Shown here in pieces: positions 752-14,484 of a stretch of DNA of 64,000 nucleotides. The position numbers and the translations under genes were made by a program. This DNA comes from Magnetococcales bacterium (GTDB lineage Bacteria; Pseudomonadota; Magnetococcia; Magnetococcales; Magnetaquicoccaceae): the NCBI GenBank assembly GCA_015234115.1, contig JADFWP010000009.1, positions 1 to 64,000 of the forward strand, given 5' to 3'. Position 1 is the stretch's first letter. The number at the start of each line of letters is the position of its first letter. The notes below the pieces were generated by a model that saw nothing but the letters and a program-made list of their open reading frames with translations, had not been told where the DNA came from and did not search any database.

Positions 752-1573
752 TCAGGTAAAGATCGGCTGCTTCATGTTCGTCGCGTCACACTCCAGTTGC
801 GGGGTCTGGGAGGCATGGAGTGAATTTTTCATATAGAGCGAGATCTGGCTATCCAGTTTCGCCCGAATGATCCCTTTCCCGGCCCCGCGCAGACATTTGC
901 AGAAGGCATAGGTGAAGAATCCACGCTGCACCCCGTTGATCGGTCCCTCTCCGGAGGTCTGACTGTCCCTGCAACCCGCCCACAGAACATGATTCATTTT
1001 ATTATCGATCACCGAATTCCTGAAAACGCGACGATTCTTCAGTTCCGGATTGGCATCGATCAGGAAGGAGTGATCCAGGGAGGGACGAATGCTCCGGATG
1101 AGGGTCTGATTGTCACCGGCATTCAGATCACGGGTGCCGGTCCCGGAATGGCAGGAATCCAGGATCACTTCCAGAGTGACCTCGCTGGAATTGATCCCCT
1201 TGAACAGCGCTGCCAGATGGTCATCGGTAATCATGTCTTTTTCCACCTGCATATCCTGTGGGCAAATCGTCTCATCCTTGTGATCAACCATCTCATCACC
1301 ATTCACATCCACCACCTGGGAACCGTGACCGGAATAGTGGAAGATCCGCAGATCGCCCTTTTTGGCTCCGGTAACCAGCCATTTCAGTCCCGCCAGGATA
1401 TTGGCGCGGGTGGCATTGCCATCGGTCAGGATGCGCAACTCGCCAGGAGTCGGATGAATCACCCCGAGTGATATCAGGGTATTCGCCATATCCTTCACAT
1501 CATTGACACACCCCCCCAGAGGATTGATGTAGGCATACTTGTTGATACCAACCAGCAAAGCTTTTGCACCCAT
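752..1573 (-). CDS. Type I metacaspase / caspase-like peptidase (family C14)
   Basis: This 273-residue protein is essentially a bare caspase-haemoglobinase fold. It starts with MGAKALLVGINKY, typical of strand 1 of the p20 domain. The catalytic dyad is intact: His83 in HYSGHGSQ and Cys141 in LDSCHSG. An acidic segment between them (about residues 92-118) fits the calcium-binding and substrate pocket region of metacaspases, which usually cleave after Arg or Lys. There is no signal peptide, so it should act in the cytoplasm unless exported by an unusual route. No second effector domain is attached. A role in cell death, protein turnover or conflict is not shown by the sequence. The start at 1573 is preceded by GGGGAAGAATC, an acceptable ribosome site. 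The gene stands alone between a terminator and an AT-rich intergenic region. Confidence 0.9.
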   Translation of the reverse strand: MGAKALLVGINKYAYINPLGGCVNDVKDMANTLISLGVIHPTPGELRILTDGNATRANILAGLKWLVTGAKKGDLRIFHYSGHGSQVVDVNGDEMVDHKDETICPQDMQVEKDMITDDHLAALFKGINSSEVTLEVILDSCHSGTGTRDLNAGDNQTLIRSIRPSLDHSFLIDANPELKNRRVFRNSVIDNKMNHVLWAGCRDSQTSGEGPINGVQRGFFTYAFCKCLRGAGKGIIRAKLDSQISLYMKNSLHASQTPQLECDATNMKQPIFT

Positions 1574-1928
1574 GATTCTTCCCCTTCATTGTGTATTGGA
1601 AATATTGACCAACCAGATCCCGGATTGGCACACCTCATGCGCATGACCGGCCCGATCTCCCCGAGGCGCGTTGCGGAACCTCGCCACGCCATCTCATGAT
1701 TTCAGGCTGTCATGCTTCATGATCTGGATCCGATTCTAGCCCATACCCCATTTCTGAAAATCGCTGAGTTACATAATTTGCTATCCTATTTTCTATCCAT
1801 TTTCTTGCAAAGAATCCTGGATCGTTATCGCAGATTGTGGTATTTATGGAAAATTGATTTATTTTTTATTATAATTTACATATATAAAATCACTTAAACA
1901 ACACCAACGTCCCGTCGCGAGAGCCGCC
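1574..1928. other. AT-rich divergent intergenic region
   Basis: This region lies between the divergent metacaspase and NarL-type regulator genes. Bases about 1760-1895 are markedly AT-rich, with poly-T tracts and TATAAT- and TATATA-like words shortly before the regulator start. It probably holds promoters for one or both genes, but I cannot assign exact -35/-10 boxes. Short open frames here have no support. Confidence 0.4.
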
Positions 1929-2735
1929 ATGATACGTCTCTTTCTTATTGATTATCATGCCATTGTGCGTGTTGGACTCAGACAGATCCTGGCCGGGAAT
2001 CAGGACTTCCGGATCGTGGGCGAAGCGGCCAATGGACGGGAAGCCTTGCACAGATTGCGTTCCCTGGATTGCGAAGGGGTGGTGTTGGAAATCGATCTGC
2101 CCGAAGTGGGCGGACTGGAGATCCTCAGGTGGCTTCGGATTCACCGACCCAAGGTCAAAGTGGCCGTCCTGACCTGGCACAATGCCGAACACCTGGCACA
2201 GGAGTCGCTCAGCGCCGGAGCCATGGGTTTTTTGACCAAAGATTGCGCCCCGGATCTCCTGTTGTTGGCCGCACAGAAGATTTTTCAGCAGAATCGCCGT
2301 TATGTCAGCCCGGAACTGGCGGAAAGACTGCTGGATCGGATGGGAACACCGCACCAGTCCACGGGGCTGGATGCGCTCTCTCCCCGCGAGGTCACCATTC
2401 TGCAAAAGCTGGCCCAGGGCTTTTCCCAGACCCGTGTGGCCCAGGAATTACGCATCAGCCTGAGTACCGTGGCCACCCATCGACGTCACATCCTGAAAAA
2501 ACTGGGAATCGAAGACACCCCCGCCCTGGTGAACTATGCACTGCATCATCAACTGATCGGTGGGAGCCGCCATCAGACCGGCACTGGAGCAGAGCATGAA
2601 AGGATACGGCCCGAAACCGAATCGTCATCCACACGCACACGCATGGATGACGATTCGATGATTCTGGATGGGTCAGACGATCTTCATTGCAGTTCAGGCA
2701 GCTTGCGCAGCTCCTCGGCCCGCTCCGGAGGATAA
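1929..2735 (+). CDS. NarL/FixJ-type response regulator with a degenerate receiver pocket
   Basis: The protein has 268 residues. Residues 1-120 form a receiver and about 145-210 a LuxR-type helix-turn-helix (LSPREVTILQKLAQGFSQ, then VATHRRHILKKLGI). The normal phosphoacceptor Asp of the L-D-I/L-x-M-P motif is Glu54 (LEIDLPEVGG). The second acidic residue of the pocket, normally DD, is D8-Y9. The conserved Lys (FLTKD) and Thr (LTW) remain. An Asp-to-Glu change can mimic phosphorylation, so this may be a constitutively active or non-phosphorylatable regulator. After the DNA-binding domain comes a polar, low-complexity tail of about 55 residues that overlaps the converging cytochrome gene by 52 bp, so read-through of an ancestral stop is possible. 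No partner kinase is adjacent. Targets are unknown; the neighbouring cytochrome operon is a guess. Confidence 0.88.
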   Translation: MIRLFLIDYHAIVRVGLRQILAGNQDFRIVGEAANGREALHRLRSLDCEGVVLEIDLPEVGGLEILRWLRIHRPKVKVAVLTWHNAEHLAQESLSAGAMGFLTKDCAPDLLLLAAQKIFQQNRRYVSPELAERLLDRMGTPHQSTGLDALSPREVTILQKLAQGFSQTRVAQELRISLSTVATHRRHILKKLGIEDTPALVNYALHHQLIGGSRHQTGTGAEHERIRPETESSSTRTRMDDDSMILDGSDDLHCSSGSLRSSSARSGG

Positions 2736-4831
2736 CCCAAAGCCCGGAAATCGAGGATTCCGCTCTTGGCGTGACACTCCTTGCAACCGCGCCCCTCTTT
2801 CTGGATGCCATGGTTGATCATCAACGAACCCATCTGCCGCATCCAGTGCGCCTCGACGTTTTTCAACTGGCCCGCCTCATCCACCGGATACTCGGCCTTC
2901 CATCCCCCCACTCCGAAGTAGCGCATGAACTCATCCATCATGTAGAGCTTGAACGGGGTTTCGTACATCCGCTTCAGAATCGGATGCTCCAGCGCCTTCT
3001 TCACCGAGGCCTTCGGATCGCCCGATTGATAATAGGTCGGATAGTCGAAAGGCAGAATCATCGCGCCGAACGGTCCCTGGTTGTTCATATCCTCGTACAT
3101 GATGGCGTTGAACACCTTGAAGGGATAGATCCTGCTCTGGCCCTGGGCCATGATGGGACGGATCTTCTCTTCGATCATGGCTTTGCGTTTTTCCAGCATC
3201 TCCGGCGACAAGGCCGACAACGGATCGGTCGCCTCGCGCACATAACGCTCCACGTCAAGATCCGGATAGCTCTTTTTCAACTCGACCGCTGCCTGACGAA
3301 TCGCCTCCACGGCCTTGGGATCCTCGATCTTCACCAATTGCCGCATCAATGGATTGTACGAGCCATCCCCGACCGGATTGTCGCCCAATGCATTGGCCAA
3401 GAACGAGCCGTTGCCGTTGAACCACAGGAAGGTGAAACCCCGGCCCGCTGCGCCGCTCTGATAGACATCCTTGAAGACATACGCCCCCTCCTCGGCATTC
3501 CAGACCGGATGAATCCAGTCGCGCAGCACGGTATTGTCATCGCGCAACTGCTTGATGTGACACGCCTCGCAAGAGACCCGCGCCACATGACCATTGAGCA
3601 GTGCCCGCTCTTCGGTATCCTTCACATGCGGGGCCGCGGTGTGACACGATTCGCATTCGACCTTCTGGCCCGGCAGGTCGTTGGCCACCAGATCCACGCC
3701 CAACGTGCCGCGCGGAATCTTGTGCCCCTGGGGCTTGTGACAATCGGTGCAGGTCATGCCCGCCTTGGCGTGCACATCATGCTCGGGCTGGATCGAGTTG
3801 CCCCGTTTGGCACCCGGATGCAACAGCCGTTTGTTCTGATGACCCAGATTGTCCGGCGCCGCCCCCTGAGGCAGGGATTTCTCCAGATCCCCGCCCATGT
3901 TGTGCTGATGGCAGTTCAGACAGGTCTGATTGGTCGGCGCACCCACCGTGAGCGCCGCCTTGAGGGAACGATCCTGATTCCACCGTTTGCCATTGAGATC
4001 CTCGATCACGTAACGCTGGTTCATGTCATACAGCGGGCTGTGACAGATCAGACAGTCGATCCCGGCCTTGGCGCTCGCCGGGGCGTCATGGAACGGCAAC
4101 ATCTTTTCCGTGGCCGGATGATAACCGCCGCCGATGTGACATTGACCGCACCCTTCGCTGCGGGTCTCCACCGCCCCATTGGCATGCTCGGGTTTGGTCT
4201 GAACCAGATCGGCCCAGCCGGTCCAGGTGAAGGAACCAGGAACCCCGCAGGCCCGGTCGATCTTGCCCACCGGAATCGGACGGGTTCCGGCGCCATTGAC
4301 CTGACGACCATCAAAGCCATAGGTGGAAGAACCAGCACTGCTGCTCTGGAATTTGAAATGGACCGAATCCACGATATCCTGCATGGTGTCCACCTCGCGG
4401 ATCTGACCATGCGAATCCGCCACCTTGATCGTGGCATGACAGGTCAGACAGGTCTCCGGCCCCTTGTATTGCCGGATCCCCGCCTTGCGGAAATACTGAA
4501 TGTGCGGATAGGGCGACTGCCGGGCAAACGAGCCGGTTTTCATCAACATGTTGACCTTCAGGCGCCGGGCAAAGGGCACCTCTTCGCTCACGGTCTGGGC
4601 CATGGCCCGTTGCTGACGATGGTCACGGGTCAGGGAATCGGCCAGAGCATCGAACTCCCGCGCGCTCAATTCGACGCTGTTGGCATAGGTCAAGGGCGCA
4701 TTGGTCACCCCGATATAGTGCTCCAGCAGTCCGGGATAGATCCAACGCACCACCCCGACCGTCACGCCCAAACCGAGCAGAATGGCGATCCGTTTGACAT
4801 GCCGTGATTGGCGGATCTGTTGGGTGTTCAT
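2684..4831 (-). CDS. Octahaem c-type cytochrome, tetrathionate reductase (Otr) family
   Basis: The predicted 715-residue protein has eight CxxCH haem motifs, in order CLTCH, CGQCH, CLICH, CLNCH, CTDCH, CESCH, CEACH and CKECH. The last is only about 25 residues from the C terminus. An uncleaved-looking hydrophobic segment near residues 14-33 would anchor it in the inner membrane with the haems in the periplasm. Its length, the spacing of the motifs and the long haem-free stretch before the last haem match the Otr-like family, members of which reduce tetrathionate, nitrite or hydroxylamine in vitro. The physiological substrate cannot be read from sequence. The start at 4831 overlaps the stop of the cytochrome b gene by 4 bp (ATGA), indicating translational coupling. 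An upstream in-frame start inside the cytochrome b gene is rejected. Together with the next two genes it probably forms a quinol-to-periplasm electron-transfer complex. Confidence 0.88.
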   Translation of the reverse strand: MNTQQIRQSRHVKRIAILLGLGVTVGVVRWIYPGLLEHYIGVTNAPLTYANSVELSAREFDALADSLTRDHRQQRAMAQTVSEEVPFARRLKVNMLMKTGSFARQSPYPHIQYFRKAGIRQYKGPETCLTCHATIKVADSHGQIREVDTMQDIVDSVHFKFQSSSAGSSTYGFDGRQVNGAGTRPIPVGKIDRACGVPGSFTWTGWADLVQTKPEHANGAVETRSEGCGQCHIGGGYHPATEKMLPFHDAPASAKAGIDCLICHSPLYDMNQRYVIEDLNGKRWNQDRSLKAALTVGAPTNQTCLNCHQHNMGGDLEKSLPQGAAPDNLGHQNKRLLHPGAKRGNSIQPEHDVHAKAGMTCTDCHKPQGHKIPRGTLGVDLVANDLPGQKVECESCHTAAPHVKDTEERALLNGHVARVSCEACHIKQLRDDNTVLRDWIHPVWNAEEGAYVFKDVYQSGAAGRGFTFLWFNGNGSFLANALGDNPVGDGSYNPLMRQLVKIEDPKAVEAIRQAAVELKKSYPDLDVERYVREATDPLSALSPEMLEKRKAMIEEKIRPIMAQGQSRIYPFKVFNAIMYEDMNNQGPFGAMILPFDYPTYYQSGDPKASVKKALEHPILKRMYETPFKLYMMDEFMRYFGVGGWKAEYPVDEAGQLKNVEAHWMRQMGSLMINHGIQKEGRGCKECHAKSGILDFRALGYPPERAEELRKLPELQ

Positions 4832-5454
4832 GGTTTTTCCTCCGTCAGGGTTGAGCCGACCACCATTTTCTTGAACTCGCCAAACACCGTCTCGCCAGCC
4901 GTGGCCAGATAGAGGTGTCCGATCAAAAAGAGCGTGAGGAACAGGGCCACCCCATAATGCAACACCCCGATCACCCACAAGGCATCCATGCCCAGAACGT
5001 GTTCCGGCAGCCATTCGTGCAGGAAAAACCCCAGACCCGACAGGATCAACATCGGCACCATCCCCCCCATCACGCCCAGATAGGTGAGTTGCTGCAACGG
5101 ATTGAACTTGGCCTCACGGGTCGCCGGAAAAGGGTGCGGGGCCTGACGGAAGATCCCCACCCCATAAAACAGGATTTGGGCCAGCAAACGGTTCATCAGT
5201 CCGGCCAGCCGGGGGCGATAATGAATCCCGTTGCCCCCGCGCAGATTGCCGATGGCAAAGATCACCCAACCGAGGGTCATCCCGATGCCGAAAATATTGT
5301 GCAGCACCCGGGCCGTGTTGAAAGGGATCAACCAGGCGCCCGGTGCGGCAAAGTGCAGACTGATTCCGGTCGCCAGCAGCACCAGAAAACAGAGCGCATT
5401 GCTCCAGTGCCAGATGCGGATCCAGACCGGATAGAGTTCAGTGGTGGATTTCAT
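4828..5454 (-). CDS. Cytochrome b561-like membrane subunit (thiosulfate reductase cytochrome b type)
   Basis: This protein of 208 residues has four or five membrane helices. It begins with the YPVWIRIWHWSNALCF pattern seen in b-type cytochrome subunits of thiosulfate reductases and hydrogenases. Histidines in helices 1 (HWSN), 2 (VLHNIFG) and near the end (VLHYG, GHLY) can ligate two b haems. It should exchange electrons between quinol and the periplasmic multihaem cytochromes encoded on either side. I chose the start at 5454 because GGGGAG lies seven bases before it; a longer form from 5511 would add a non-membrane stretch overlapping the upstream gene. It overlaps the heptahaem gene by 17 bp and the octahaem gene by 4 bp, so the three are certainly one transcript. 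Confidence 0.87.
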   Translation of the reverse strand: MKSTTELYPVWIRIWHWSNALCFLVLLATGISLHFAAPGAWLIPFNTARVLHNIFGIGMTLGWVIFAIGNLRGGNGIHYRPRLAGLMNRLLAQILFYGVGIFRQAPHPFPATREAKFNPLQQLTYLGVMGGMVPMLILSGLGFFLHEWLPEHVLGMDALWVIGVLHYGVALFLTLFLIGHLYLATAGETVFGEFKKMVVGSTLTEEKP

Positions 5455-6382
5455 GGTGATCTCCCCTTGCGACCAGAAAACGGGCCAAACCATGGAGCGC
5501 AACCCCGACAATCGTCAAAACAACCAGACCAATGCCACCCCAATCAAGCCATTGGTTGCGGGTCATGCCGATGACATAGGCATCGTTCATCACCACCGAA
5601 TGAACAAAACCAGCCGTGCGGCGCTCCTCGCGGGCGCGATGACGATACAGTTTGGCCGCCAGGATCGAATCGCGGCTGTGACAGGATTCGCACGCCCGCA
5701 CCGCATGATCCCGACCCAGAATGAAATGGCTGCGCTGGCTCTCCCCACCCGTGTGACACTCGACACAGCGCACCTTGTTCCAGTGGCGGGTCGCCTCCGG
5801 CAACCAGGCATGGGTCTGTTCCAGGGTGGAAAAAAGCCGTCCGCTCTGACCCAGAATGGCCTCCGGCGCATCGTGGCAATGACGGCACGTCCGATTCTCC
5901 CGCGCCACCACCGAGGTCAGATGCTCCTGCGACTGCCCCGACAGCGTGCGAAAATCATGAGGATTGTGGCAGGAAAAACAATCGAAAGAGTCCTGCAACG
6001 CCTGATAATGGATGCTGCGCTGGAAGCTCCGTTCAATGGATTCAAACAAGGCGCGAGGGAAATTCTTGCTCTTTTCATGACAGCCGAGACATTCGAGCCG
6101 CTCACGCCGCGCCTCCGGAAAATGGGGATAGACCTCAAAACCGGCGGCATGGCAGTCGCGGCAGGCCAGTTTCTTGTGATCGGAAAGGGCCATGGCCTTG
6201 GGATCAATGGAGAGATCACGCAACCCGCCGGTCTTGGCATCCCGATAGGCCAGGGTGGACATGCTATGGCAACGCAAACATTTTTCATCGCTCTGGGGGG
6301 ATGCTGCCACCTGTTGGTCACCATGAAACACAATCAGCGCGAACACCAATGATATAAATTTTTGCTTCCGGCTGGCGTTCAT
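5438..6382 (-). CDS. Heptahaem c-type cytochrome with C-terminal membrane anchor
   Basis: The protein has 314 residues, with a signal peptide at about 1-27 (FISLVFALIVF then AASPQ). Seven CxxCH motifs follow: CLRCH, CRDCH, CLGCH, CFSCH, CRHCH, CVECH and CESCH. A transmembrane helix near residues 278-300 tethers it to the inner membrane, and a His-rich tail (HHEIHH) follows. It most likely relays electrons between the cytochrome b subunit and the octahaem enzyme. The start at 6382 follows a GAGGG site. The gene lies 102 bp downstream of the ankyrin gene and the gap contains a strong hairpin, so the amount of transcript reaching the cytochromes may be tuned there. The exact subfamily name is not recognised. 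Confidence 0.87.
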   Translation of the reverse strand: MNASRKQKFISLVFALIVFHGDQQVAASPQSDEKCLRCHSMSTLAYRDAKTGGLRDLSIDPKAMALSDHKKLACRDCHAAGFEVYPHFPEARRERLECLGCHEKSKNFPRALFESIERSFQRSIHYQALQDSFDCFSCHNPHDFRTLSGQSQEHLTSVVARENRTCRHCHDAPEAILGQSGRLFSTLEQTHAWLPEATRHWNKVRCVECHTGGESQRSHFILGRDHAVRACESCHSRDSILAAKLYRHRAREERRTAGFVHSVVMNDAYVIGMTRNQWLDWGGIGLVVLTIVGVALHGLARFLVARGDHHEIHH

Positions 6383-9310: not shown

Positions 9311-12300
9311 CTACAACACGCCCAGGAAGCTCTCCCAGGAGGAAGAGGCCAGGAACGAATGGTTGGTCGCCGTATAGGCCGAATCGACCCGGGTGGAGCC
9401 GTAAGGCAGATAAATCGACAACCCATTGGCCCCGGCAATGGTTCCGCCGACCGCCGATACCGCGTCGTCCAACCGGCTGGAGACATCGGCAGCCGTTCTG
9501 GCCAGGGTGGCATCGCTCACCTGGGTGGCCACACTGTCCATGAAGCCCCCAAGATCACGATAATTGTAGCTCTCTCCATCGCCGCCGAAACTCGCCGAAC
9601 GTGCCGCCGCAGTACGCATCCGGGTCCAGTCGGACGAGGTGCGATCCAGCGCCAGGGCACGGGTCGCAAAGCTCTCCAGGGCATTGTTCAGATCCCCGAG
9701 ACGGTTGGATTGCACCGCCGACAGGGTGGCATCCTCTTCGCCCGCATACTCCTGGGCATACGAACTGACAATCCGGCTGCCGACATCGGTTGCCGACAGG
9801 TTGGGATTGTTGGCCAGATCCTGCAACCAGTTGTCGTAGGCCCAGCCCGTGCCCGGAATCAACTCCTCGGAAAAGACCGTGACATCGGTCAGGTTACGCA
9901 GATCCCAGGCCTGTTCCACCATGCCCATCAGACAGGCATCGAAACCGATGAGATCGAAATGATCCACATTGGAATTGTCGATGGCCGAGCGAATCTCGTT
10001 GGAAGTGAGATTGTCACCGTTGTTGGAATCGTCCCAGCTCACCCCGTCGAGACCACCACCATGATCCCAGATGATCAGGGCATAGTGTTCGGCAGGGTTG
10101 TTGGTGGCCGCCCAGTTGATGAAGTTGGTCAGCGTGGCGGCACTGCCCATGTTGGCCTCGCCAAGCGAGGTGAACCGGGAAAACGAGGAGACCGTTTCCG
10201 TATCGGAATCGTGGCTGATGGTCCCCTGTCGGGTATCGGTCCAGTTGCCGTTGCTGCGATCATGACCCGGTGTGCGGTCCAGAATCGAGACCAGATTGAC
10301 CGAGGCGGGCAGAGTGACCGACTCCATTTCGTTCAGATCGCCGAGGGCGTACTCCTCCAGATTGTTGTCTCCATCGATATAGGTCATGATGGTCCAGGTA
10401 TTGGCGTGCGTCACCGTGCTGGTGACAAACGAAACCGCTGCGCTTTGCTGGAAATCATTGCCTGCCAGATCCTTCACCGCACCGGTATCGATGGACAGCG
10501 TGTAGGTGGTATCGTTGGTCAGATCGTTGGTGGGATTGACCGTGAGCGTTTCGCCGGCAATGGTGACCTGATCGCTGGTGACCGGAATGGTGAGCGTCTG
10601 ACCGCCCCCCTGGAGCACGATATTGCCCGTCCCGGCCCGCACCATCTCGTTGAAGGTGAGGGTCAGATTGGAAGCCGGATTGAGGGTGGCAGGCGGGGCG
10701 TTGACCATGGCCGGACCCGAGGTATCGGGTGGACCGGGGGTGACGGTCACCCGATAGGAACCGGTCTCCGAGCCGTAACCTCCGGCGGCGATGTAGTAGT
10801 TGCCGGTCGCCGGGGCCGTGAAGCTGATCGATGAATTGGTCGTTCCATCCGCGTCATCGTTCGAGGTGTCCGGGATGACCAGACCCGTGCTGTCGTAAAG
10901 ACCTTGCAGGAACGGATCGCTCAAAGTGCCATGATTGCCATTGCTGCCCAACTCCTGGATCTGATAGGTGCGGCCTGCGGTCAGGGAGACCTGGATCCAG
11001 TCCACATCGGAGGCGGTATCGATCTGGCCGCGATACTCGAATTCCATGGAAGCGGTGGTGTTGATATTGTCGGCCACCTCCGTGCTGACGCTGTTGTTGA
11101 TCGTCAGATTGTAGGTGCCCGTGCCATCGGCATAACCGCCCACAGCCAGATAATAGGTTCCCGTGGTGGTGGGACGGAAGGTGGTCGCCGAATCGGTGGA
11201 GCCATTGGCGTCGTCGTTGCCTGTACCCGGCAACAGCGTACCGGTCGCATCGTAGACCCCCACGAAATTGGGATCGTTCAGGGTGCCCAGATGGCTGCTG
11301 GCACCGCGCAGATTGATTTCGTAGTTCTGACCGGCGGTGAGGGAGACCCGATACCAGTCCCGTTCAAAAGCGGAATCGACCTGGCCATCGACGCCCGTGG
11401 TGCCGATGTCGATGGTGCCGGTGGTGGTGATGGAATCATCGATGGCGTCCGCGCTGTTGATGCGGGTGGTCAGGCTGAGTTGATAGTCGCCGGTATCGGT
11501 GCTCTGCGCCCCGGCGGCCAGGTAATAGGTGCCGGTGGTGGTCGGGGTGAATTGCACCCGCGAACCGGAACCCAAAGCGTAGTTGTCGTTGCTGGTCCCG
11601 CTGATCAGTCGCCCGCTGGCATTGTAGATCCCCCGGAAATAGGGATCGGGCAGCGGCGAGGTGCTGGAGGAGTCGCCGGTCTCCTCCACGATATAGGTCT
11701 GACCTGCGGTCAGCGAGACGCGGAACCAGTCCACATCCCGCGCCGTATTGATCCGCCCGTTGACCCGGCCATCCACGGCCAGGGTGGCCGTGGTGCTCAC
11801 GGTACTGGCCACATCACTGGCCTGGGTGTCGCTCACCCGCAGTTGGTAGCTCCCGGTCAGGGTGCCGTAGGCGCCTGCCACGAAATAGTAGTTGCCCGAT
11901 GTTCTGGGGGTGAAGACCGTATGAGATTCGGAGGTGCTGTTGTAATCATCGTTGCTGGTGTTGCGGACCAATTGGCCACGGCTGTTGTGAATGCCGTAGA
12001 AATAGGGGTCGGTCAAGGTGCCATGGCTGGAGGGTTCGCCTTGCAGATCGATGGTATAGGTATGGCCTGCGACCAGAGCGGCCCGGAACCAGTCCCGGTC
12101 GTTGGCCGACTCGATACTGCCGCTGGTCGAGCCATTCAGGACCGCCACCCCGGTGGTGGCCACAGTGGCGGTGAAATCATCCGCCGAAGAGGCCGAGACC
12201 GTATACGCCCCGGTGCCATTCGCGTCATCCCGGACCTGGAGATAATAGGTGCCGGACTCCGTGGGAGTATAAGAGATGCGGGAATTGAGCGAACCGCCGG

Positions 12301-14314
12301 CATCGTTGTTGCTTGCCAGCACACTCCCGCTGCTGCTCAGGAGGGAGAGATACGGATCGTCGAGTCCATCGACCGAAGCGGCGGTGGCGCGGAATTGATA
12401 GGCCGTGCCTGCGGTCAAACGCACGGCAAAGCGATCCCGGTCTGCGGCCTGTTCGATCCGACCCACGGTGCCGCTGCCATTGACCAGCACCTCCCCGGTC
12501 GTGGCGGCCGTATTGGGAAAGTCGTCCCCGGTCATGGCCGAAACCGTATAAGCCCCGGTTCCCTCATCATAATCCTTGACACCCAGATAGAAGGTGCCGG
12601 TGGTCTCGGGAGTGAAGACGATCAGGGAGTTCCGTCCGGTGCCGCCATCGTCGTTGGAAAGAATGGTGGTACCGGCAGCGTCGTAGAGGGTCAGGTAGGG
12701 ATCTTCCAGAGCGTCGGTCTCTGCGGAGGTGGCCCGCAACTGATAGGTGACGCCCGCAGTCAGAGCAACGGAGAACAGATCGCTGTCCCAGGCGGTTTCG
12801 ATCACGCCAGAGGTGCCGGCCTCGCTTTCGACGCTCACGACGCCGGTGGTGGCGATCGTGCCGTCAAAATCGTCCTCCTCGCCACCGGTGCTGACTGCGG
12901 TATTGGCCGTGGCGCTCAACTGATAGCGGCCCGTGCCGAAGCCGTAATCCCGGACGCCGAGATAATAGGTGCCCGAGGCGATCGGGGTGACGCTCATCAG
13001 GGAGTTGCCCTCTCCCCCGCCATCGTCGTTGTCGCTGATCCAGACGCCCTGGCCATCGAACAAGGAGAGATAGGGGTCGGTCAGGCCGCCCGAGTCGCTG
13101 CGTTCCAGTTGCAGACTGTAGGTGGTGCCTCCGGTCAGGGTGATCGCGAACCAGTCCTGATCGCCTCCGCGCTCGATGGTTCCCGCTGTGACGGTACCGT
13201 CGGTGGCAACCTGTCCGGTGGTGCTGGAACTGGCCGTGTAATCATCGGCGGTGGTGGCCGAAACCGTGTAGGAACCCCGATCCGTGCTCGTATTCCCGCG
13301 CACCCCCAGATAATAGGTGCCCGTGACGGTCGGCGTGTAACGAATCAAGGCATTGGTATCGCCGCCGCCATCGTTGTTGGAGACAATGGCCGCGCCGGCG
13401 CGCCCATAAAGGGTCAGGAAAGGATCGGCCAGGCCATTGTTGGCATCGTGTTCGGCCCGCAACTGATAGGCGACTCCGGCAGTCAGCCGCACGGCAAACC
13501 AGTCCCGGTCCCCGCCGCGCTCGATATTGCCGGAAGTGGCCTCCGGGGCATTGACCGCCACCCGTCCTGCCGTGGTCGCTGTGGCCGTGTAATCGTCGGG
13601 CACCGCAGCCGCGATCGTATAGCGTCCCAGGCCCGATCCATAGTCCCGGACCGCCAGATAATAGGTGCCAGCGGCAGTCGGGGTGTAGCTGATCAGGGAG
13701 TTGTAATGCCCACCCCCGTCATCATCCGAAGTGACGGCATTTCCGCTGCTGTCGAGCAGGGTCAGGTAGGGGTCCGCCAAACCGGCGCTGTTGTTGGTGC
13801 GGGTGGCGCGGAACTGATAGGAGGTGCGCGCCGAAAGCGTGACCGCGAACCAGTCCTGATCCCCAACCGTCTGGATGCTGCCCGTGATGGCGGCACCGCC
13901 GACTGCGACCCGTCCCAGGGTGGCGGTAGTGGCCGCAAAATCATCCGTGGCCGAACTGACGGACATTGAGGTAGCGGAAACGGTGTAATTGCCGGTTCCC
14001 GTGTCATAGTGGCGCACAGCCATGTAATAATCACCCGCCGCCAGCGGGGTATAGGCGATGAGGGAATTGCGCTCTCCGCCGCCGTCATCGTTGGAGACGA
14101 TCCAGTGCCCCTGGCTGTCGTAGAAATCCAGATAGGGATCGGTCAAACCGTCGGTGAGACCACGGGTGGCACGGAGTTGGTAGAGCGTGCCTGCGTTCAG
14201 GGTGACCGCAAACCAATCACTGTCGTTGGCGACCTCAATAATACCGGTTGATTCGGTGCCATCGACGATGACACGACCTGTCGTGGCCAGAGAGTCGGAA
14301 TAATCGTCAGCCAT
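9311..14314 (-). CDS. Giant clostripain-family (C11) cysteine protease with ten PPC-like repeats
   Basis: The protein has 1,667 residues. From about residue 3 to 1190 there are ten tandem repeats of 105-120 residues, each with a D-x-D-W-F-x-V-x-L core and a G-x-Y-Y-L-x-V motif, like bacterial pre-peptidase C-terminal (PPC) domains. A Big_5/SwmB-like Ig domain follows (about 1200-1290). The C-terminal C11 peptidase has His near 1417 (WDHGGG) and Cys near 1460 (DACLMGM), the clan CD dyad, so it should cleave after Arg. There is no signal peptide; export by a type I or other Sec-independent system, or cytoplasmic action, must be assumed. The start at 14314 follows GGGAG; an earlier frame start has no support. 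PPC domains normally sit C-terminal to proteases and are removed, so an N-terminal tandem array is unusual. Confidence 0.88.
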   Translation of the reverse strand: MADDYSDSLATTGRVIVDGTESTGIIEVANDSDWFAVTLNAGTLYQLRATRGLTDGLTDPYLDFYDSQGHWIVSNDDGGGERNSLIAYTPLAAGDYYMAVRHYDTGTGNYTVSATSMSVSSATDDFAATTATLGRVAVGGAAITGSIQTVGDQDWFAVTLSARTSYQFRATRTNNSAGLADPYLTLLDSSGNAVTSDDDGGGHYNSLISYTPTAAGTYYLAVRDYGSGLGRYTIAAAVPDDYTATATTAGRVAVNAPEATSGNIERGGDRDWFAVRLTAGVAYQLRAEHDANNGLADPFLTLYGRAGAAIVSNNDGGGDTNALIRYTPTVTGTYYLGVRGNTSTDRGSYTVSATTADDYTASSSTTGQVATDGTVTAGTIERGGDQDWFAITLTGGTTYSLQLERSDSGGLTDPYLSLFDGQGVWISDNDDGGGEGNSLMSVTPIASGTYYLGVRDYGFGTGRYQLSATANTAVSTGGEEDDFDGTIATTGVVSVESEAGTSGVIETAWDSDLFSVALTAGVTYQLRATSAETDALEDPYLTLYDAAGTTILSNDDGGTGRNSLIVFTPETTGTFYLGVKDYDEGTGAYTVSAMTGDDFPNTAATTGEVLVNGSGTVGRIEQAADRDRFAVRLTAGTAYQFRATAASVDGLDDPYLSLLSSSGSVLASNNDAGGSLNSRISYTPTESGTYYLQVRDDANGTGAYTVSASSADDFTATVATTGVAVLNGSTSGSIESANDRDWFRAALVAGHTYTIDLQGEPSSHGTLTDPYFYGIHNSRGQLVRNTSNDDYNSTSESHTVFTPRTSGNYYFVAGAYGTLTGSYQLRVSDTQASDVASTVSTTATLAVDGRVNGRINTARDVDWFRVSLTAGQTYIVEETGDSSSTSPLPDPYFRGIYNASGRLISGTSNDNYALGSGSRVQFTPTTTGTYYLAAGAQSTDTGDYQLSLTTRINSADAIDDSITTTGTIDIGTTGVDGQVDSAFERDWYRVSLTAGQNYEINLRGASSHLGTLNDPNFVGVYDATGTLLPGTGNDDANGSTDSATTFRPTTTGTYYLAVGGYADGTGTYNLTINNSVSTEVADNINTTASMEFEYRGQIDTASDVDWIQVSLTAGRTYQIQELGSNGNHGTLSDPFLQGLYDSTGLVIPDTSNDDADGTTNSSISFTAPATGNYYIAAGGYGSETGSYRVTVTPGPPDTSGPAMVNAPPATLNPASNLTLTFNEMVRAGTGNIVLQGGGQTLTIPVTSDQVTIAGETLTVNPTNDLTNDTTYTLSIDTGAVKDLAGNDFQQSAAVSFVTSTVTHANTWTIMTYIDGDNNLEEYALGDLNEMESVTLPASVNLVSILDRTPGHDRSNGNWTDTRQGTISHDSDTETVSSFSRFTSLGEANMGSAATLTNFINWAATNNPAEHYALIIWDHGGGLDGVSWDDSNNGDNLTSNEIRSAIDNSNVDHFDLIGFDACLMGMVEQAWDLRNLTDVTVFSEELIPGTGWAYDNWLQDLANNPNLSATDVGSRIVSSYAQEYAGEEDATLSAVQSNRLGDLNNALESFATRALALDRTSSDWTRMRTAAARSASFGGDGESYNYRDLGGFMDSVATQVSDATLARTAADVSSRLDDAVSAVGGTIAGANGLSIYLPYGSTRVDSAYTATNHSFLASSSWESFLGVL

Positions 14315-14384
14315 TTTTTTCTCCCATTGCCTGAAAATTTGGATCGGCCCATGATTCGCGCGCCCTTTCGGTAACTTTGATATC

Positions 14385-14415
14385 TTTATACCGTTGCCGA
14401 CAAAGAGCAAGTCAA
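14385..14415 (-). promoter_or_regulatory. Possible sigma-70-type promoter of the clostripain gene
   Basis: On the minus strand TTGACT (14415-14410) and TATAAA (14390-14385) are separated by 19 bases, slightly long for the class. The -10 lies about 70 bases before the gene start. Confidence 0.4.
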
Positions 14416-14484
14416 TTTTTGTAGGGAAAGACCCAAATCCTCTTGCAAGAACAACCACTCACTGGAATCCCGCGCCGGCTGGGA

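Follow-up and report, generated by a model that had tools for sequence, protein, structure and literature searches.

A NarL-type response regulator with an apparent pseudo-receiver domain and a conserved DNA-binding domain in a Magnetococcales bacterium

The locus described here raises the question of how a response regulator might be controlled when two residues of its phosphorylation pocket have been replaced and its DNA-binding domain is intact. The gene lies near the beginning of the window, which is the whole stretch of 64,000 nucleotides that was analysed (positions 1 to 64,000 of contig JADFWP010000009.1, assembly GCA_015234115.1). A sequence-only reading of this DNA had reported Glu54 in place of the phospho-acceptor aspartate, Tyr9 in place of the second acidic pocket residue, and an intact DNA-binding domain, and had proposed that the protein is either always active or controlled in another way. 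The features that bear on this proposal are collected in Table 1.

Table 1. Features of the regulator locus, in window coordinates.
Feature	Position	Strand	Basis
Histidine kinase gene (HisKA) lying downstream of the caspase gene, incomplete at the contig end	1..588	-	Domain search
Caspase-domain (Peptidase_C14) gene, 273 aa, divergent	752..1573	-	Pfam
355-base intergenic region separating the divergent caspase and regulator genes	1574..1928	.	ORF map
NarL/LuxR-type response regulator gene with predicted pseudo-receiver domain, 268 aa	1929..2735	+	ORF; PF00072 and PF00196
Receiver domain, residues 1-118	1929..2282	+	Alignments to the PDB set and relatives
GerE/LuxR helix-turn-helix DNA-binding domain, residues 148-211	2370..2561	+	Pfam, orthologue alignment
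C-terminal tail of 57 residues (212-268) and stop	2562..2735	+	Not present in the orthologue; weak codon signal
Perfect inverted repeat within the tail (14-base arms, 12-base loop)	2618..2657	.	Repeat search, folding
Multihaem cytochrome c ORF, converging	2684..5014	-	ORF; Pfam

The reading frame of the regulator is intact over its 268 codons. A Response_reg match (PF00072, residues 5-114, 78.3 bits against a Pfam cut-off of 30.2) is followed by a GerE match (PF00196, residues 149-204, 56.3 bits against a cut-off of 23.5), and this order of domains is that of NarL/LuxR-type regulators. The nearest solved relatives in the PDB set are ChrA, VraR, and NarL. In the alignment with these proteins, Glu54 occupies the position of the phospho-accepting aspartate and Tyr9 that of the second residue of the Asp-Asp pair (DD2), as the earlier reading had proposed, and the regulator retains Asp8, Thr82, Phe101 (the aromatic residue at K-3), and Lys104. 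Codon 9 is TAT (bases 1953-1955) and codon 54 is GAA (bases 2088-2090), and the closest orthologue has GAT at both places, such that each replacement corresponds to a single base change. An AlphaFold model made from the single sequence of the regulator (mean pLDDT 45.1, pTM 0.28) did not permit the placement of Tyr9 and Glu54.

The rarity of these residues was assessed by aligning 100 loci to the regulator. These loci were taken from the matches listed for its own genome, 41 genomes of the order, genome G042, and one metagenome bin (L076), and, having been selected for their resemblance to the query, they are not a random sample. Sixty-nine align over both domains, 13 align partly, and 18 gave no alignment. 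The 69 full-length relatives comprise the orthologue, 67 other regulators from the same order, and the sequence from the unrelated metagenome bin. Position 9 is Asp in all 69, and position 54 is Asp in 67, with one Gly and one Asn. The Tyr and Glu of the window protein are therefore not a product of alignment noise. Thr is found at position 82 in 66 of them, with one Ser and two Ala (one of these in the orthologue), and position 104 is Lys throughout. When Glu is accepted at the first Asp position and Ser in place of the Thr, one or more of the five pocket residues is missing in four of the 70 proteins that include the window protein (the window protein itself, L031, L109, and L110), or about 6%. 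For comparison, the available text of PMC12632262 gives approximately 6% by direct count, and approximately 13% by an earlier inference, as the share of pseudo-receivers among bacterial receivers. A Glu-bearing NarL-type pseudo-receiver is by itself ordinary. Two of the relatives, L109 (Gly54/Ala82) and L110 (Asn54), are further NarL-type pseudo-receivers from the same order.

Searches beyond this set yielded few close relatives. Among 398 genomes of the phylum, with seven candidates scored per genome, only three reach E ≤ 1e-48, and these are the regulator's own genome, that of the orthologue, and G025. A search of a wider set of genome contigs gave a single distant match, at 25% identity. 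The regulator is matched in 38 plasmid records, all below 60% identity and at no more than 38.3% among the best 10 of the 38, and no homologue was found in the viral contigs searched.

The orthologue, from genome G001 of the same genus, is 54% identical to the regulator (E 3.8e-66). In searches of 48 genomes of the order the two proteins are mutual best matches, and the reverse search from the orthologue recovers, besides itself, the window gene alone at E ≤ 1e-42. A tree of 70 sequences pairs them with 100/99 support. Matches at E ≤ 1e-25 are present in nine of the 11 genomes of the genus, but all except the window and orthologue proteins are 33-39% identical and are placed on different branches of the tree. 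No further close orthologue was found in these 11 genomes, several of which are 57-88% complete.

The earlier reading had held that aspartates in orthologues would reduce the replacements to a single-strain mutation, and the sole close orthologue does carry Asp9 and Asp54. In this literal sense the comparison goes against the reading. However, the orthologue comes from a different species and has itself lost a pocket residue, with Ala replacing Thr82, and by the definition in the available text of PMC12632262 this protein is also a predicted pseudo-receiver. Because the orthologue keeps both aspartates, the simplest account places the Tyr9 and Glu54 changes on the branch of the window protein. 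One genome per species was compared and the Tyr/Glu state is seen in a single draft genome, but given the different pocket loss in a second species, a mutation confined to one strain is not what the data most naturally suggest, and a lineage leaving phosphorylation control appears to fit better.

By the same definition (PMC12632262, available text), the window protein is a pseudo-receiver through Tyr9 at DD2 and Glu54 at the phosphosite. It also lacks the phospho-acceptor aspartate whose absence marks the aspartate-less receivers (ALRs). Its domain order and overall sequence resemble those of NarL, VraR, and ChrA (PDB 1a04, 5hev, and 4yn8), but these three proteins keep both the Asp pair and the phospho-Asp. 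WhiI and BldM are NarL-type regulators. In the portions available of PMC4125116 and PMC12632262, these two Streptomyces proteins are described as orphan atypical regulators that work without phosphorylation and function as homo- and heterodimers. Like the window regulator, WhiI has only one Asp of the pair, but it is also without the Lys that the window protein keeps, whereas the pocket of BldM is complete (PMC4125116, PMC12632262). The Clostridioides difficile regulator CmrT has a Glu phosphosite, an altered Asp pair, and a kinase gene nearby, as in the window, but it belongs to the OmpR family, carries DGD where the window protein has DY, and operates beside a canonical regulator of the same operon (PMC12548384, in the text available).

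The closest parallel in residues is AtvR of Pseudomonas aeruginosa, a NarL-family protein that likewise has Glu at the phosphosite (PMC12548384 and PMC12632262, both in part). AtvR is without one Asp of the pair, although the accessible portion of PMC12548384 does not specify which one, and the window regulator is without the second. According to the same portion, AtvR keeps the T/S, the K, the aromatic residue at K-3, Pro at D+4, and Gly at D+8, to which T82, K104, F101, P58, and G62 correspond. Together with E54 and Y9, the window protein thus displays the AtvR-like pattern of a NarL pseudo-receiver in full. AtvR comes from a different organism, presumably has a different regulon, and is reported to be induced by anoxia (PMC12548384, PMC12632262, available text). 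Judged by this pattern, the window regulator would be a further example of switches of the phosphate-independent type that are already known.

In the mode of action that we consider probable, this protein is an atypical response regulator of the NarL family whose receiver has become a pseudo-receiver, and whose DNA binding is independent of phosphate and set by expression or by partners, with local targets the likeliest. DD2 is a direct metal-binding residue of receivers and is non-acidic in about 80% of pseudo-receivers (PMC12632262, available text), and Tyr at this position would remove a direct Mg2+ ligand. Glu54 would leave no aspartate available for phosphorylation, and by the chemistry of the family, phosphotransfer from a histidine kinase should fail. 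The receiver is probably retained as a dimerisation module, and it is possibly biased to the active state by contacts that Glu54 could make with Thr82 and Lys104, which are both still present. In aspartate-less receivers the phospho-Asp is most often replaced by Glu, and Glu at the phosphosite activates many regulators and can mimic phosphate (PMC12632262, in part). However, function is lost in EpsW with D58E and with D13K (PMC4671073, available text), so Glu54 need not activate and may inactivate, and the E53A change in CmrT is described as having little effect (PMC12548384, in part). Always-active behaviour, as first proposed, is plausible.

The other half of that proposal, control in another way, is likely, because the pocket is broken and the DNA-binding domain is both intact and conserved. 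The helix-turn-helix would bind DNA whenever the protein is present, and activity would then depend on expression level or partner proteins and not on phosphate. The likeliest targets would be the promoter of the regulator itself and the divergently oriented caspase gene, since they share the intergenic region, in which a promoter-like site faces the regulator (1847-1875, plus strand). A comparison of this region with that upstream of the orthologue revealed no convincing common site, operator-like motif, or palindrome. The HisKA kinase gene starts 1.3 kb from the regulator, past the caspase gene. This kinase is a possible partner of the regulator, and its proximity may leave a residual kinase link conceivable.

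The two domains differ in how strongly they have been conserved. Between the regulator and its orthologue, the helix-turn-helix domain is identical at 47 of 64 positions, in agreement with the report of an intact DNA-binding domain, and its recognition region at 17 of 21, whereas the receiver is identical at 55 of 118. By the NG86 method, dN is 0.40 overall, 0.49 in the receiver, and 0.22 in the helix-turn-helix, with dS of 1.07, 1.07, and 1.13, respectively, and hence dN/dS is about 0.2 for the helix-turn-helix; these values are rough given a crude method and a dS close to saturation. The ratio of helix-turn-helix to receiver identity is 1.51 for this pair and 0.97-1.26 for ten pairs that were hand-chosen from the same set, four of which have one member in common and all of which are less diverged in the receiver. 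Calculated by alignment columns the ratio is 1.55. Among the other pairs of the 70-row alignment whose receivers are similarly diverged (identity 0.42-0.52; 633 pairs), the median is 1.09 and a single pair attains this value; these pairs share members, are non-independent, and are mostly paralogues.

Conserved columns point in the same direction. At 23 columns that are at least 90% conserved in 68 other regulators, the window protein departs at five (D9Y, D49E, D54E, G122N, and I170V), three of which are acidic residues of the receiver. I170 is the only one of eight conserved helix-turn-helix columns to differ, and both G122N and I170V are common to the orthologue. Together these data are what would be expected of a receiver under altered constraint joined to a DNA-binding domain that has been maintained. 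In our reading, phosphorylation control has been abandoned in this lineage and DNA binding kept. The orthologue pair represents a natural case in which different pocket residues were lost (the Asp pair and acceptor in one protein, Thr in the other) with the DNA-binding domain conserved, and relatives with a full pocket exist alongside it in the order, which makes for a useful comparison.

The C-terminal end of the protein bears on a different explanation. The sequence-only reading had noted an unusual tail that overlaps the converging gene. The open frame is real, and its overlap with the cytochrome ORF amounts to 52 bases (2684-2735). In the orthologue, the stop codon directly follows the equivalent of residue 211, and the longest C-terminal extension is 11 residues among the 45 relatives whose sequence pieces include a stop (the pieces of 24 more end before any stop). 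Codon usage in the tail scores -0.06 bits per codon versus 0.33 in the body. In 107 control pieces of 57 codons, drawn from ten window ORFs assumed to be genes, the 5% point is 0.12 and the lowest value -0.40. Among random sequences with the composition of the tail, approximately 26% would keep a 57-codon frame open by chance. The tail is probably the result of a lost stop codon, with translation running on through the convergent hairpin, and not a functional addition.

A lost stop codon invites the suspicion that the gene is decaying, having lost its kinase and its stop, with the pocket changes and the tail as early steps towards a pseudogene. The two pocket losses and the poor codon signal of the tail would agree with this, as would the five departures at the 23 conserved columns, a number that is joint second highest among the 70 proteins. 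We nevertheless regard decay as unlikely. In a gene that is simply decaying, changes would be expected at any position. The frame remains open, and the helix-turn-helix, with its recognition region, is strongly conserved and has the low dN/dS given above. The conserved columns of that domain are unchanged save for I170V, which the orthologue shares, and of the two branches the window's is the shorter (0.51 versus 1.08).

Still less probable is that the regulator remains under phosphate control through another acceptor or a partner, the pocket having moved rather than been lost. Asp56 at D+2 is a conceivable acceptor, as it is present in the window regulator and the orthologue and in none of the remaining relatives among the 69, and the retention of Thr82 and Lys104 and the closeness of the kinase gene would also suit such a scheme. 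Yet Tyr occupies the place of the direct metal ligand, and the orthologue keeps Asp54 and lacks Thr82, which leaves no obvious alternative chemistry common to the pair. Alternative phospho-acceptors have mostly been seen in engineered mutants. Finally, a sequencing or assembly error is very improbable even for a regulator known from one draft genome in 161 contigs, 77% complete, in which one base accounts for each change, because two independent errors would have had to strike two catalytic residues of 211 and the orthologue has the same kind of pocket loss at a different residue.

The preferred reading, a phosphate-independent regulator with local targets, directs attention to the genes on either side. 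On the convergent side, the arms of the inverted repeat (2618-2631 and 2644-2657) lie between the two genes, and the hairpin folds better than all of 200 shuffled sequences on either strand (z of -3.89 and -4.60). There is no clear T-run, and the hairpin was not listed by a consensus scan for intrinsic terminators, which wants a T-run and limits the loop to 8 bases. No further copy of the repeat arm occurs in the window at two or fewer mismatches. This element is a candidate for a bidirectional terminator or a regulatory hairpin. The converging cytochrome belongs to a cluster (2684-6382, minus strand) encoding two multihaem cytochromes c and a cytochrome b561-type protein, and the large cytochrome has a weak match, far below the cut-off, to the octahaem tetrathionate reductase family.

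On the divergent side, the association with a caspase gene recurs at the orthologue. In G001, an amidase-caspase protein of 913 aa is encoded on the divergent side with one gene intervening. It is the better of two matches in G001 to the window caspase at E ≤ 1e-10, and is 31% identical to it over the domain. Caspases are found in 41 of 48 genomes of the order. With at least 83 regulator and 96 caspase places, there are five regulator/caspase pairs within 5 kb, versus 0.61 expected if the two were independent, two within 3 kb (0.36 expected), and six within 8 kb (0.97 expected); this count was made post hoc, the window and G001 pairs are homologous, and two pairs in G016 are tandem copies. The five pairs are those of the window (752-2735), G001 (L077, 4575-9141), G016 (two pairs; L143, C2, 302-10574), and G038 (L146, C25, 2001-14201).

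The loci outside the orthologue pair have a different make-up. In G016, a protein-kinase/HisKA_3 kinase and two tandem canonical NarL-type regulators accompany an amidase-caspase gene; over the domain, its product shares 59% identity with the G001 protein. In G038, a hybrid kinase (HisKA) and a canonical regulator accompany two caspase genes. At ten other regulator loci, with flanks of up to about 6 kb and several contigs ending early, a caspase is present at G016 alone. An earlier scan of 1.5-kb flanks was too short for this purpose and misses the caspase domain of the orthologue's own locus.

The arrangement suggests that the regulator may control the caspase gene. If this link is true, it would be a pointer to the control of a bacterial caspase gene. 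A wider interpretation is a recurrent module of NarL-type regulator and caspase in this order, which in one genus would have become kinase-free. Two species would each have lost other pocket residues and so arrived at pseudo-receivers, and the caspase would be controlled by the level of the regulator instead of phosphate; we hold this to be doubtful. Literature searches on pseudo-receivers in Magnetococcales or Magnetococcus, and on caspases with LuxR-family regulators or their neighbourhoods, found nothing on the present locus. For metacaspases in connection with response regulators or Magnetococcus, the available part of PMC3501461 names Magnetococcus in one passage, with no mention of response regulators.

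Two further observations concern the proteases themselves. At L077 (4575-7316) and L143 (7707-10574), an N-acetylmuramoyl-L-alanine amidase domain is fused to a C-terminal caspase domain. In the window, a gene on the minus strand (9311-14458) encodes a protein of 1715 residues in which nine PPC stretches occur together with a clostripain-family domain (PF03415). This gene adds another cysteine protease to the caspase, no more than 8 kb away from it.
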